Below are positions 2,597 through 34,671 of a stretch of DNA of 34,671 nucleotides, in pieces. The notes below the pieces were generated by a model. It ran no database searches. It saw only the letters and a program-made list of their open reading frames with translations, and was not told the DNA's origin. The translations under genes were made by a program, and so were the position numbers. The stretch's first letter is position 1. The number at the start of each line of letters is the position of its first letter. Origin of the DNA: Mediterranea sp. (in: CFB group bacteria) (lineage in GTDB: Bacteria > Bacteroidota > Bacteroidia > Bacteroidales > Bacteroidaceae); NCBI GenBank assembly GCA_031262385.1, contig JAISHU010000006.1, forward strand, positions 1-34,671, written 5' to 3'.

Positions 2597-4117
2597 TTGG
2601 CTCAATTAATCTTCGACTTGAAAAACGTCAACCCCAAAGCTAAGATTAGTGTGAAGTTGGTGGCTGAAAGCGGCGTGGGTACCATTGCTGCCGGTGTAGC
2701 CAAAGCAAAAGCCGACCTCATCACCATTAGCGGTGCCGAAGGGGGTACGGGTGCATCACCCGCATCCAGCATCCGCTATGCCGGTATCTCGCCCGAACTG
2801 GGATTGAGCGAAACTCAGCAGACACTGGTGCTGAACGGTTTGCGCGGACAAGTGGTGCTACAAGTGGACGGACAACTTAAGAGCGGACGCGACGTGGTGT
2901 TAATGGCGATGCTCGGTGCCGAAGAGTTTGGTTTTGCCACCTCGGCACTTATCGTACTGGGCTGCGTGATGATGCGCAAGTGTCACCAAAACACCTGTCC
3001 GGTGGGAGTCGCCACACAGAACGAAGAGTTACGCAAACGCTTCCACGGACGTGCCGAATACTTGGTGAACTTCTTTACGTTCCTTGCACAAGAGGTACGC
3101 GAATGGCTTGCCGAAATTGGCGTGGAGAAATTGGACGACATCATCGGACGTACCGATTTAATCGTCCGTAAACCGTCCGACGGTATAAAGAAGCACGACC
3201 TGTTAGCGTTCGACAAAATGCTGGCACGTGTGAACAACGATGCAGCCATTCGCCACGTCATCGACCAACAACATGGCATTGAAGAGGTGAAAGACCGTGA
3301 AATTCTGCGTGCTGCCGCCGATGCGGTGAAAAGTCAGAAAGAGGTGTCACTGGAATATGCCATTGCCAACACCGACCGCGCTGTAGGAGCGATGCTGTCG
3401 GGCACTATTGCACAGAAATACGGTGCCACCGGTTTGCCGTCGGATACACTCAATATTAAATTTAAAGGCTCGGCAGGACAGTCGTTCGGTGCATTCCTCG
3501 TACCGGGTGTCAGCTTCAAACTCGAAGGTGAAGCCAACGACTACTTAGGCAAAGGATTGTCGGGAGGACGCATTGCGGTGTTACCACCGGTGCGCAGCAA
3601 CTTCGAAGCCGAAAAGAATACCATTGCCGGCAACACCTTATTATATGGTGCAACCAGCGGCGAAGTTTACATCAACGGACGCGTGGGCGAACGTTTTGCC
3701 GTGCGCAATTCGGGCGCCATTGCCGTGGTGGAAGGTGTGGGCGATCACTGCTGCGAATACATGACGGGTGGACGTGTGGCGGTACTGGGACCCACAGGAC
3801 GCAACTTTGCCGCCGGTATGTCGGGCGGTGTGGCTTATGTGTGGAACCGCGAGGGTAACTTCGACTACTTCTGCAACATGGAAATGGTGGAACTGTCGCT
3901 CATTGAAGAGGCATCCTATCGTAAAGAGTTGCACGAACTGATTCGTCAGCACTACCTTTACACCGGTTCTAAGCTGGCACGCACCATGCTCGACGACTGG
4001 AACCGCTATGTGGACGAATTCATCCAAATAGTCCCCATTGAATACAAAAAGGTCTTGCAGGAAGAGCAGATGCAAAAGTTGCAACAGAAGATTGCCGATA
4101 TGCAAAGAGATTATTGA
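2597..4117 (+). CDS. gltB: Glutamate synthase large subunit, C-terminal part (same frame as the upstream ORF, after TAG)
   Basis: Frame continues directly after TAG: SIEDLAQLIFDLKNVNPKAKISVKLVAESGVGTIAAGVAKAKADLITISGAEGGTGASP, then CHQNTCPVGVATQ and the GXGXG-type C-terminal domain. The TTG start at 2597 is only the ORF caller's choice. Confidence 0.9.
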   Translation: MAQLIFDLKNVNPKAKISVKLVAESGVGTIAAGVAKAKADLITISGAEGGTGASPASSIRYAGISPELGLSETQQTLVLNGLRGQVVLQVDGQLKSGRDVVLMAMLGAEEFGFATSALIVLGCVMMRKCHQNTCPVGVATQNEELRKRFHGRAEYLVNFFTFLAQEVREWLAEIGVEKLDDIIGRTDLIVRKPSDGIKKHDLLAFDKMLARVNNDAAIRHVIDQQHGIEEVKDREILRAAADAVKSQKEVSLEYAIANTDRAVGAMLSGTIAQKYGATGLPSDTLNIKFKGSAGQSFGAFLVPGVSFKLEGEANDYLGKGLSGGRIAVLPPVRSNFEAEKNTIAGNTLLYGATSGEVYINGRVGERFAVRNSGAIAVVEGVGDHCCEYMTGGRVAVLGPTGRNFAAGMSGGVAYVWNREGNFDYFCNMEMVELSLIEEASYRKELHELIRQHYLYTGSKLARTMLDDWNRYVDEFIQIVPIEYKKVLQEEQMQKLQQKIADMQRDY

Positions 4118-4239
4118 GTTTGAGTTTATAAGTTTTTGAGTTTTGAGTTAATCAGTTTACCAACAACCAACTCAAAAGCTCAAACTCATCAACTCAACCT
4201 CATCAACTTAAGAAGTTAAAAACTTAAAAACTTAAACAA
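4118..4239. repeat. AT-rich imperfect inverted/direct repeat spacer between gltB and gltD (GAGTTT.../AAACTTAAAAACTTAAA)
   Basis: gagtttgagtttataagtttttgagttttgagtt followed by aactcaaaagctcaaactc...gttaaaaacttaaaaacttaaac. A related spacer lies at 5605-5644. Confidence 0.6.
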
Positions 4240-9397: not shown

Positions 9398-9484
9398 GGA
9401 AGTTTGGGTGAGTGGCTGAAACCACCAGTTTGCTAAACTGACGTACGGGTTACCGTACCGGGGGTTCGAATCCCCCAGCTTCCG
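9398..9484 (+). tRNA. tRNA-Ser (anticodon GCT)
   Basis: GGAAGTT...AGCTTCC acceptor stem with discriminator G, anticodon loop CAGTTTGCTAAACTG, long variable arm (ACGTACGGGTTACCGT), GGGGGTTCGAATCCCCC T-arm. CCA not encoded. Confidence 0.95.
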
Positions 9485-9502
9485 CAACGTTATTAACGTT
9501 AG

Positions 9503-9565
9503 ACTACGAGCTACAAGCGATGAGGAATTAATTGATTCCTGCTCCTTGTGGCTCGTAGTTTTTTT
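9503..9565 (+). terminator. Intrinsic terminator after tRNA-Ser
   Basis: ACTACGAGCTACAAG...CTTGTGGCTCGTAGT stem (one G-T) with inner AGGAAT/ATTCCT stem, followed by TTTTTTT. Confidence 0.85.
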
Positions 9566-9780
9566 ATGCAAAGTGTCAAAACGTCAAACGAACCCTCGAA
9601 AAACGGGCTTATTTCGGACTGAAGGACGGCTTGGTGACTTTCGTGCGAGTATAGCGCGTTAAACTATGTAAAAATAGCACCTTAATTCACACACTTACAG
9701 AACGATATAAGGAAATTATGTCAAAAAACAAAAAGCGCCTTCAGCGCGAAAAAACAGCCCCAAAAAGAACTTTATAAAAT

Positions 9781-9862
9781 TATCTCGGCAAGTTATCGCG
9801 ATAACTTGCCGGGATAACACAATAATTTGCCGGGATATACAGGCTAACGTGCCGGGATAATT
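9781..9862 (+). repeat. Palindrome plus phased TAACTTGCCGGGATAA motifs inside element A
   Basis: ttatctcggcaagttatcgcgataacttgccgggataa palindrome, then TAACTTGCC, TAATTTGCC and TAACGTGCC motif starts at 9802, 9823 and 9845 (21 and 22 bp apart). Confidence 0.85.
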
Positions 9863-9873
9863 TCTTTAGCCGG

Positions 9874-9980
9874 CAGTTGATTCATTGTTTTCGCGCCGAC
9901 AGTTTGTTGTTTTCGCGGAGTTGATTCGTTGTTTCCGCCGAGTTGATTCGTTGTTTTTACCGAGTTGGTTCGTTAAGTAA
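9874..9980 (+). repeat. Five-unit 22-bp tandem (iteron-like) array inside element A: GAGTTGATTCGTTGTTTTCGCC
   Basis: Equivalent TTGTTTT positions at 9885, 9907, 9929, 9951 and 9973 (TTAAGTA in the last), exactly 22 bp apart. Confidence 0.88.
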
Positions 9981-10333
9981 CGGGAGATCATGCATAGCAT
10001 GCGGTTTAAAGAGACGTTTTTGGCAAAGTACGAGTTAGCAAAAAGCGCAAAATTGTGACATTATGATGCTAAAACAGGGAATAATGTGCAAAAGCAACAA
10101 TGAAACAGAAAAACACAAACTTCTGTGTATAATGCAGCCCTCCGGATAAAGAAACGGCATAGCTTTACGGCTAATATGGTGTGGCAGAACAGAAATCTTA
10201 CAACGAGAGGAAAAACGGATGCCATTACCACAACCGTAGCTTATTCATATAATTTTTAGGCAGTAATCGCGCAATACACAAGCGAAAGTAAGAACCCCGT
10301 ATGCCGAACGGCACCTGTAGTGATGTGTATGAA

Positions 10334-18141: not shown

Positions 18142-19791
18142 CTACACAATCTCTATCCCTTGCTCCGCGCACAGTTGCACGCCCAACTCCTTGAGTTTGT
18201 ACTTTTGAATCTTACCGCTACCCGTCATGGGGAACTCGTGTACAAAGAAGATGTATTTGGGAATTTTGTAACGCGATATTTTGCCGGTACAGAAGTCGCG
18301 CACATCCGACTCTTGCAGGTCGGCGCCCTCTTTTAAGATAATAAAGGCACCCACCGCTTCGCCGTATTTGGGCGAGGGTATGCCTGCCACCTGCACATCT
18401 TGCACACCGTCGAGCTTGTAAAGGAACTCTTCGATTTCGCGCGGATAGATATTTTCGCCGCCACGGATAATCATGTCTTTGATACGTCCCGTGATGCGAT
18501 AGTTGCCTGCTTCGTCCTTGATGCCCAAGTCGCCCGAATGCAGGAAGCCGTCGGCGTCTATCACTTCGGCTGTGGCTGTAGGATTCTTATAGTAGCCTTT
18601 CATGGTGTTGTAACCGCGACTACACATCTCGCCCTGTACGCCTACGGGACACTCTTTGCCGGTTTCGGGATCTATCACATGTACTTCGGTGAACTCGTAC
18701 TCGTGTCCCACTGTGGCGCAGCGCGCTTCGAACGAATCGTCGATGCGAGTTTGCGTCATGCCCGGCGAGGTTTCGGTGAGTCCGTACACGCTGGTAACCT
18801 TCATAAACATCTTCTCTTCCACCTGTTTCATCAGTTCCACGGGACAGAGCGAACCCGCCATGATACCTGTACGCAGACTGGACATGTCGAACATATCAAA
18901 CATCGGGTGATTGAGTTCGGCTATAAACATGGTGGGCACGCCGTACAGAGCGGTACAACGTTCTTTGTGAATGGAGGCAAGCACCAGCAAGGGGTTGAAT
19001 CGTTCCACCATTACTTGTGTACAGCCGTGCGTTAAACAGTTCATGGTAGCCAGCACCACACCGAAGCAGTGAAACAGCGGCACGCAGATGCAGAGTTTGT
19101 CGGCGGCGGTAAACCGCATGTGTTCGCCCGTGAGCCAACCGTTATTGGCTATGTTATGGTGAGTGAGCATTACGCCTTTGGGGAATCCGGTGGTGCCCGA
19201 TGTATATTGCATATTCACCACGTCGTAGCAATTGACTTGTGCTTTGAGCGAGTTAAGCCGATCTTCGTCTACGTTCTCGCCCAGCAACAGCAGTTCGGCG
19301 GTGTTGTACATACCGCGATGCTTCTCTTGCCCCACGTAGACAACGTTCTTCATTTTAGGGAAACGTTCGCTTTTGAGATGACCGCGCTGGCAACTCTTCA
19401 GTTCGGGAAGCATGGTATTGGTCATCTGCACAAAATCGCTGTCCTTCTCACCATTGACAATGCAAAGGGTGTGCATATCCGAATTGTCGCACAGATATTC
19501 CAGTTCGCTTTGCTTGTAGTTGGTGTTGACAGTGATGCACACCGCACCAATTTTGGCACAGGCATACAAAATAGTAAGCCAGTCAGGTACATTGGCAGCC
19601 CAAAGTCCCACGTGAGTACCGCGCTCCACGCCAATGGAAATCAATCCCTTTGCCATGTCGTCTACACGGTGATTAAACTGCTTCCATGTAAAACGCAGAT
19701 TACGGTCGGAATAAACGATATACTCTTTGTCGGGCGTCTGTTCCGCCCAATACTCGACCCACTCGCCGAGTGTTCGCTCTGATAGTTGCAT
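18142..19791 (-). CDS. AMP-binding acyl-CoA synthetase (FadD-like)
   Basis: [80 protein letters not shown]. Confidence 0.93.
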
Positions 19792-19802
19792 GAGATGGTA
19801 AT

Positions 19803-19874
19803 GTACTAATGTGCCAATATGCTAATGTGCCGTAAAGGAATCACGTGCAGCCTCATTAGCACATTAGCATATTG
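19803..19874. repeat. AT-rich palindromic intergenic repeat, copy 1
   Basis: CAATATGCTAATGTGC (19815-19830) with exact reverse complement GCACATTAGCATATTG (19859-19874); related copy at 33614-33698. Confidence 0.8.
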
Positions 19875-25540: not shown

Positions 25541-25583
25541 AAGAAGAAGGCGGGTGTCTATTGACATCCGCCTTCTTCTTTTT
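25541..25583 (+). terminator. Intrinsic terminator
   Basis: AAGAAGAAGGCGGGTGTC...GACATCCGCCTTCTTCTT then TTT. Confidence 0.85.
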
Positions 25584-31032: not shown

Positions 31033-31509
31033 TCATAATGTCACAATATCGTGCCTTTTGCTAACTCGTACTTTGCCAAAAACAGACCTTTAAACCGCAC
31101 GCTATGCATTATTTCCCGCAACTTAACGAACCAACTCGGTAAAAACAACGAATCAACTCGGCGGAAACAACGAATTGTCCGCACGAAAACAACGAATCAA
31201 CTGCCGGCTTAGCAAATTATCTCGGCAAGTTAGTCTGTATTTCCCGGCAAATTGTTGCGTTATCTCGGCAAGTTATCGCGCTAACTTGCCGGGATAATTT
31301 CATAAAGTTCTTTTTGGGGAAGTTTTTTTGCGCTGAAGGCGCTTTTTGTTTCTTGACAATATTTCTTCGTATCTTTCTGTGAGTATGCGCATTAAGGTAC
31401 TATTTTTACATAGTTTAACGCGCTACACTGCCAATGAAAGTCACCGAGCCGTCCCTTAGTCCGAAATAGGGGCGTTTTTCGAGGGTTCGTTTGACGTTTT
31501 GACACTTTG
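31033..31509 (-). repeat. Noncoding repeat element, copy B (about 477 bp), inverted relative to copy A
   Basis: Reverse complement matches 9569-10066 along its whole length. Contains the palindrome ttatctcggcaagttatcgcgctaacttgccgggataa (31260-31297) and four 22-bp units (about 31120-31203). Confidence 0.92.
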
Positions 31510-33613: not shown

Positions 33614-33698
33614 TGGCTAATATACCAATATGCTAATGTATCGATGAAACCGTGCGAGCTTCATTGACACATTAGCATATCGGCAAATTAGCACATTA
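33614..33698. repeat. AT-rich palindromic intergenic repeat, copy 2
   Basis: CAATATGCTAATGT (33626-33639) / ACATTAGCATATCG (33669-33682). Loop cgtgcgagcttcatt resembles copy 1 loop cgtgcagcctcatt. Confidence 0.75.
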
Positions 33699-34671
33699 TT
33701 ATATGATTCCCAATGCCCGGAAGCATTTGGTCAGTTTTTCTACGGCAAAGTCTACTTGATCTTTGGTGTGAGTAGCCATTAGTGCTACGCGTACCAGCGT
33801 ATCTTGCGGTGCACAAGCGGGCGGAATCACGGGGTTGATAAAGATACCTTCGTCGAAGGCAAGTTTGGTTACGGTAAATGTCTTTTCCGTATCGCGTACA
33901 TACAGCGGAATAATGGGAGAAGCCGTCTCGCCTATTTCAAAGCCGGCATCGCGGAAACTTTTCAAGGCATAGTTGGTGATGTCCCAAAGGCGTTGCTGAC
34001 GTTCGGGTTCATTCATAATGATATGTAATGCTTCGCGAGCGGCAGCCGTAGAAGCCGGTGTGCAACTGGCTTGGAAGATGTACGAACGTGCCGTGTGGCG
34101 CAACCAGTTAATAATGGATTCGTCGGCAGCCACAAAGCCACCGATAGAAGCCAGCGATTTACTGAAAGTACCCATTATCAAGTCTACGTCTTCGGTAACA
34201 CCGAAATAGTCGCAAACACCACGTCCTTGTTTGCCGAACACGCCGATGCCGTGTGCTTCGTCCACCATAAGGCTGGCATTGTATTTCTTCTTCAGACGTA
34301 CAATCTCGGGCAGGTTTGCCAAATCGCCTTCCATAGAAAACAAGCTATCCACAATGATAAGTTTGATAGCCTCGGGAGCACATTTTTGCAACTCGCGCTC
34401 CAAGTCTTCCATGTCGTTATGCTTGTATTTCAGTTGGGTAGAAAAAGAAAGACGACGACCGTCCACTATCGAAGCGTGTACGCGGTCATCGCATATAATA
34501 TAATCGTTACGTCCTGTCAGTTGGGGAATAACACCTTCGTTTACCGTAAATACGGTGGAGAAACAGAGTGCATCTTCTTTACCTACAAATTCAGCCAATT
34601 CTTTTTCTAATTCGACATGTATGTCCAATGTTCCGTTCAACAAGCGTGAACCGGCGCATCCCGTGCCGTAC
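33699..34671 (-). CDS. spt: Alpha-oxoamine synthase family PLP enzyme, probably serine palmitoyltransferase (5' end beyond window)
   Basis: YGTGCAGSRLLNGTLDIHVELEKELAEFVGKEDAL, VDEAHGIGVFGKQGRGVCDYFG, GTFSKSLASIGGFVAA (PLP Lys). Frame open to the window edge. Confidence 0.8.
   Translation of the reverse strand, partial: YGTGCAGSRLLNGTLDIHVELEKELAEFVGKEDALCFSTVFTVNEGVIPQLTGRNDYIICDDRVHASIVDGRRLSFSTQLKYKHNDMEDLERELQKCAPEAIKLIIVDSLFSMEGDLANLPEIVRLKKKYNASLMVDEAHGIGVFGKQGRGVCDYFGVTEDVDLIMGTFSKSLASIGGFVAADESIINWLRHTARSYIFQASCTPASTAAAREALHIIMNEPERQQRLWDITNYALKSFRDAGFEIGETASPIIPLYVRDTEKTFTVTKLAFDEGIFINPVIPPACAPQDTLVRVALMATHTKDQVDFAVEKLTKCFRALGII

Follow-up and report, generated by a model that had tools for sequence, protein, structure and literature searches.

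A 38-bp palindrome within a dispersed intergenic element of Bacteroides: half-sites phased at 21-22 bp as candidate arrays for a multi-site DNA-binding protein

What kind of site is a near-perfect palindrome that is followed, at regular distances, by further copies of one of its halves? Such a site lies in the window analysed here, a stretch of 34,671 nucleotides from a draft genome of Mediterranea sp., and in a preliminary description it was taken either for the nucleation site of a dimeric protein with cooperative spreading or for a hairpin recognised by a transposase- or relaxase-like enzyme. We located the 38-mer, TTATCTCGGCAAGTTATCGCGATAACTTGCCGGGATAA, at 9780-9817, one base earlier than described, with 18 of its 19 pairs complementary. 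In 200 mononucleotide-shuffled windows the best 38-bp palindrome never exceeded 15 of 19 pairs, so the palindrome is far above chance. The two additional right half-sites, the neighbouring array with the same period and the corresponding arrangement in a second copy (copy B), there as the reverse complement, were all found as described (Table 1).

The palindrome turned out to be part of a larger non-coding element of about 530 bp, which extends well past the region in which it was first noticed. Alignment of the copies defined the ends of the element and gave the order of its parts: a conserved leader, sub-array 1 containing the palindrome, sub-array 2 and a conserved tail. Copy B is shorter than copy A by about one 22-bp unit. 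No coding frame is open through copy A; stretches of about 100 codons are open in some other copies, and since they are absent from both copies of the window, a coding role was rejected.

Table 1. Positions of the element and its parts in the window
Feature	Position	Strand	Remarks
Copy A of the dispersed element	9564-10092	+	intergenic, 3' of tRNA-Ser; blastn, copy alignment
Leader, 5' conserved part	9564-9737	+	homologous to leaders of other species; aligned with G025 leaders
Leader core TAGCGCGTTAAACTATGTAAAA	9652-9673	+	nearly invariant among genome copies
Sub-array 1, four half-sites spaced 21-22 bp	9780-9860		copy alignment
Half-site 1, left arm of palindrome	9780-9795	-	inverted here; direct in 26/47 copies
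Half-site 2 TAACTTGCCGGGATAA, right arm of palindrome	9802-9817	+
Half-site 3	9823-9838	+	21 bp on
Half-site 4	9845-9860	+	22 bp on
Sub-array 2, 22-bp unit (AGTTGATTCGTTGTTTTCGCCG) in about 4.5 repeats	9875-9974	+	TRF
Tail, with conserved CGTTTTTGGCAAAGTACGAGTTAGC at 10015-10039	9975-10092	+	related to tails of other species
Copy B of the element	31033-31509	-	opposite orientation to copy A, at a distance of 21.5 kb
Copy B, leader core	31404-31425	-
Copy B, palindrome	31260-31297	-	17/19 pairs
Copy B, two extra half-sites	31216-31259	-
Copy B, sub-array 2, 3.5 units	31125-31202	-	TRF

Several other repeats and hairpins were seen in the window. At 9398-9571, directly 5' of copy A, lies the tRNA-Ser(GCT) gene; the long T-run hairpin behind it (GACTACGAGCTACAAG...CTTGTGGCTCGTAGTTTTTTT) resembles an ordinary terminator. 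Another near-perfect 38-bp palindrome (17/19 pairs; AAAGAAGAAGGCGG...CCGCCTTCTTCTTTTT) at 25542-25579 also looks like an ordinary intrinsic terminator. A second intergenic repeat, consisting of CAATATGCTAATGTGCTAATG-like tracts, is present at 19790-19829 and 33616-33707; it occurs alone and also at the right flank (3' end) of many copies of the element in this genome. At 4114-4236 there are small repeats between genes, both direct and inverted, whose periods are 22-23 bp and 14 bp (TTGAGTTTGAGTT / AACTCAAACTCA).

The preliminary description had expected the palindrome arms to be preserved, or to covary, in homologous copies. Among the 47 full copies of the genome the 38-mer retained between 12 and 19 of its 19 pairs. 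The left half-site was in the direct orientation (CTTGCCGAG) in 26 of them and inverted in the remaining 21, as CCCGGCAAG in 15 and as CTCGGCAAG in 6; as read from the alignment, the A/G variants of both arms in the inverted-arm copies did not consistently co-vary. The arms are thus neither kept nor matched across copies, and a hairpin that a transposase or relaxase would recognise is unsupported when the left arm is so often direct. The idea of a dimeric protein that nucleates and spreads survives in part: the phased half-sites fit multi-site binding, whereas a palindromic nucleation site does not agree with a dyad that is optional. Because the left arm is reversed in these 26 copies, the true unit is the half-site, and the constant feature is a set of four half-sites phased at 21-22 bp, that is two helical turns, the first of which can have either orientation. 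We read the flip of the left half-site as a probable small local inversion. Linked variants of 3-7 bases that resemble this flip occur elsewhere in the alignment (columns 41-42, 109-115 and 220-225; GGGC/GCCC, AGCA/TGCT and CTTGCCGAG/CTCGGCAAG); they look like tiny inversions and are freely shuffled among the copies.

The genome of origin (G000) is a 2.6-Mb draft of 171 contigs and is 84% complete. When it was searched by blastn with the region 9560-10100, at least 40 full-length copies of 87-92% identity were obtained (scored among 125 candidates). The leader core, searched as TAGCGCGTTAAACTATGTNAAA, gave 85 matches, 78 of them perfect over 22 bases, and its reversed control gave 0; units of sub-array 2 were found in 254 pairs genome-wide compared with 1 for the reversed control. 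Since the full copies have a mean identity of 86% while the leader core is nearly invariant, the core appears to be under constraint, or at least its conservation argues for it. In all contexts examined the element was intergenic, often 0-250 bp from genes, and according to simple ORF calls the neighbouring genes were convergent in 13 cases, tandem in 21 and divergent in 9, which is near random. Variable sites are widely shared: in 159 of 528 alignment columns a second state was present in at least 4 copies. Mutual information between such sites was 0.325 for adjacent sites, reached the permutation level past about 20-30 bp (0.063 at 21-30 bp compared with 0.052 permuted) and was absent past 60 bp. 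Simple copying followed by divergence would leave linked subfamilies, so the mosaic copies would rather fit extensive short-tract exchange or repeated local selection.

The copies are also spread out along the chromosome. Between adjacent copies of one contig the gap (n = 21) averaged 14.8 kb, with a minimum of 7.15 kb and a CV of 0.32. If copies were placed uniformly, given the last copy of each contig, such a minimum would have a probability of 3e-5 and such a CV one of 2e-5. The placement is therefore non-random, for a test chosen post hoc after the positions had been seen, in a fragmented assembly and with one position approximate. Degenerate copies may escape this analysis; an array-based search of the genome added one locus, with no close pairs among the matches listed. 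For the arrays of Bacteroides ndongoniae described below, close pairs were likewise absent and the minimum-gap probabilities were 0.047 and 0.017 on two contigs, which is weaker support than in the genome of origin.

We then asked how far the element reaches in the genus. The EF-G-like protein encoded in the window is 93-94% identical to homologues in Bacteroides oleiciplenus, B. clarus and others, which places the genome of origin in Bacteroides sensu lato. By blastn, 35 of the 36 genomes sampled from the genus lacked the element; G025 contains a divergent relative, in about 20 copies whose leader and tail are the same and whose 22-bp array is another. A sequence-only profile of the leader (R1), with 17 candidates scored per genome, matched in at least 49 of 160 genomes of the genus Bacteroides (at least 27 of the 94 of high quality), and in 149 genomes of Bacteroidales it matched the genome of origin itself and 0 of the 148 others. 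A scan of named genomes with the leader core gave no match. Copy number ranges from 1 to about 85 per genome. Between ends that stay the same, the genomes examined have 22-bp units of their own, for example CACAAGCATTGTTCGCGAGCCG in G122, GGAAAACATACGATTTGTCGAG in G007, CGGATATATGTGGTTCGCGCAC in G035, GACGCGTGAGACGGAAGAGCGG in G105 and GTGCGCAACAAACTCGGTAGGC in G061, and some single genomes contain several different units.

The 22-bp period is not confined to arrays with a leader. Genome G122 is probably B. ndongoniae, because its array is identical to that of locus L094 at the same contig coordinate, and in B. ndongoniae a search for three CAAGY words set 22 bp apart gave 189 matches and its reversed control 0, the matches falling in an estimated 80-100 places, compared with 12 leaders found; a leaderless array of the same unit lies at 1692-1824 of L094. 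The CAAGY triple was present in 102 of 151 genomes of the genus, where it is a blunt tool alone, as the reversed control also scores in some of them. Self-matches in the intergenic parts of 80 named Bacteroidaceae loci peaked sharply at a lag of 22 (37.7 per 100 kb), with raised values at 21 and 23 and a harmonic at 44, most other lags giving 1-6 per 100 kb; coding DNA gave 2 per 100 kb at lag 22. Unrelated 22-bp phased, often palindromic arrays were also noticed about 150-350 bp upstream of the EF-G-like gene at six loci from different species (L135, L138, L143, L158, L133 and L108), the same position that copy B occupies in the window.

Some loci in other species are inherited vertically. 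Both neighbouring genes are common to L224 of G007, L204 of G122 and L247 of G142; to L231 of G007 and L251 of G142; to L230 of G007 and L252 of G142; to L182 and L183; and to L257 of G133 and L270 of G177. In the L182/L183 and L224/L247/L204 groups the ends are recognisable and the arrays have diverged. In the genome of origin, 0 of 52 copies had both neighbours matching a copy elsewhere, and 8 matched on one side. This suggests that the family has expanded in its own lineage and points to mobility.

Taken together, the two-turn phasing, the free orientation of the half-site, the genome-specific unit, the indifferent gene context and the even spacing lead us to favour, tentatively and at less than even confidence, the reading that a DNA-binding protein occupies the arrays at multiple sites and has a role in organising or insulating the chromosome. 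Molecules of the predicted protein would line up next to each other along one helical face at the phased sites, and about 85-100 places, evenly spread on the chromosome, are candidates for occupation. The role of each would be to organise the nucleoid or to insulate, for instance as a domain boundary, rather than to switch a single gene. The sequence of the unit drifts between species while its spacing and the ends stay, as expected if the specificity of the binding protein evolves. The constraint on the leader core, the intergenic peak at 22 bp, the leaderless arrays, the spacing and the loci with conserved neighbours and differing arrays are all in line with binding arrays. On the other side stand the limited presence of the leader in the genus and its widely varying copy number, the several units per genome, which are awkward for one protein, and the lack of copies in the genome of origin with shared neighbours on both sides.

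The last observation speaks for a mobile element of the non-autonomous, MITE-like kind, spreading within this lineage; we take this as the main rival explanation and consider it a real possibility, though short of probable. Leader and tail would then be the ends recognised by a transposase, the array a passenger minisatellite or a set of internal transposase sites, and the spacing would result either from target immunity, a property of Mu, Tn7 and Tn3, or from recombination that removes repeats lying close together. A family of about 85 intergenic copies scattered over the genome, with a variable middle between conserved ends and missing from almost all same-genus genomes searched by blastn, is what such an element would leave, and BOX and BrickBuilt, which have the same architecture, have been read as parasitic or MITE elements (PMC3049150, PMC4596501). 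However, terminal inverted repeats (TIRs) did not exceed chance (longest exact inverted repeat 5.13, in shuffled ends 5.04), and target duplication was not significant at fuzzy element ends (mean 4.91 compared with 4.67 for flanks paired anew, P = 0.065). A transposase-bearing autonomous copy was not seen among the loci examined, and phage, plasmid and viral-contig collections contained no match to the element. Vertical inheritance at some loci and the leaderless arrays of B. ndongoniae also count against mobility.

The nearness to genes could mean that the element acts in transcription between operons, as a terminator for both directions, an insulator or a promoter. In 45 of 47 copies there is a short inverted repeat rich in GC, AAAAGCG..TTCAGCGC, and promoter activity has been described for BrickBuilt (PMC4596501). 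We find this quite unlikely, as gene context is near random and a terminator or promoter needs neither about nine phased units nor genome-specific units nor even spacing. The Bacteroides promoter consensus has its elements at -33/-7, and this consensus was unmatched in the 47 copies. The conserved leader and tail would also suit a structured non-coding RNA with internal repeats, as would an inverted repeat that flanks the array in G122 and G025 (GAAATAGAAG/CTTCTATTTC and TTCTAGCGA/TCGCTAGAA). This RNA is barely credible: for 45 leaders from about 25 genomes RNAalifold gave -1.9 kcal/mol with an unfavourable covariance term, covariation among the 47 copies was short-range and not of the base-pair type, and at gathering scores Rfam matched in the window the tRNA-Ser alone. 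The flanking inverted repeat had been considered as a covarying pair between G122 and G025, and it was dropped because it is absent or mismatched in L182, L188, L177 and others. Finally, tandem arrays readily gain and lose units by slippage, and the missing unit of copy B could be seen in this light, with spacing and spread accidental. Neutral minisatellites of this kind are very unlikely, however, as neither the sharp preference for 22 bp in intergenic and hardly in coding DNA nor the near-invariant leader core and the even spacing would be expected from them.

Returning to the binding arrays, a wider version would extend to the whole genus: intergenic arrays of 22-bp sites, dozens to a hundred of them and evenly spaced, partly framed by the conserved leader and tail, would be read by a protein whose specificity changes between species and with which the arrays co-evolve, setting domain boundaries on Bacteroides chromosomes; we regard this extension as rather unlikely. 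In the human gut few chromosomes are as abundant as those of Bacteroides, and, to our knowledge, their organisation is poorly understood. The element family offers a handle on either a new chromosome-organising system with fast-evolving specificity or a large mobile family with a spacing rule. A genus-wide 22-bp periodicity of intergenic DNA would also caution against reading single arrays as local regulatory sites.

Our literature search on 22-bp phased intergenic arrays in Bacteroides, which covered a minority of subscription papers, found nothing relevant, and this silence is weak evidence of novelty. Among known systems, the end-binding sites of Mu/Tn7-type transposons, at about 22 bp per site, are similar in length, and the spacing rule resembles target immunity; in contrast to them, the element has no TIR, no significant target duplication and no linked transposase, and its array is central instead of terminal. 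REP/BIME sequences lie outside genes in high copy number, and they may include palindromes and be bound by nucleoid proteins. The element is like them in number, location and palindromes and would share the protein binding, whereas REP units are short conserved palindromes and the element has a dyad in less than half of its copies and is about 530 bp long. Nearest in published architecture are BrickBuilt and BOX. BOX of Streptococcus pneumoniae (boxA-boxBn-boxC) has extensive secondary structure (PMC3049150). It is similar in architecture only, with conserved ends, a variable number of internal repeats, intergenic location and high copy number; the leader of the element, folded alone by RNAalifold, had no conserved fold, and the unit is 21-22 bp and genome-specific. 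BrickBuilt, a MITE of Porphyromonas gingivalis with a leader, 23-nt tandem repeats, a tail and IS5-like TIRs in about 19 copies (PMC4596501), shares with the element the order Bacteroidales, a dispersed intergenic location, a leader and a tail around tandem repeats of 22-23 nt and a species-restricted repeat sequence. Its TIRs (GAGACCTTTGCA...TGCAAAGGTCTC) were found in 0 of 47 copies (2 mismatches allowed, no more than 80 bp from an end), and for this reason the element is not filed under BrickBuilt. It also differs from BrickBuilt in its copy number of about 85, in ends that are conserved across the genus, in arrays that differ by genome and in its even spacing.
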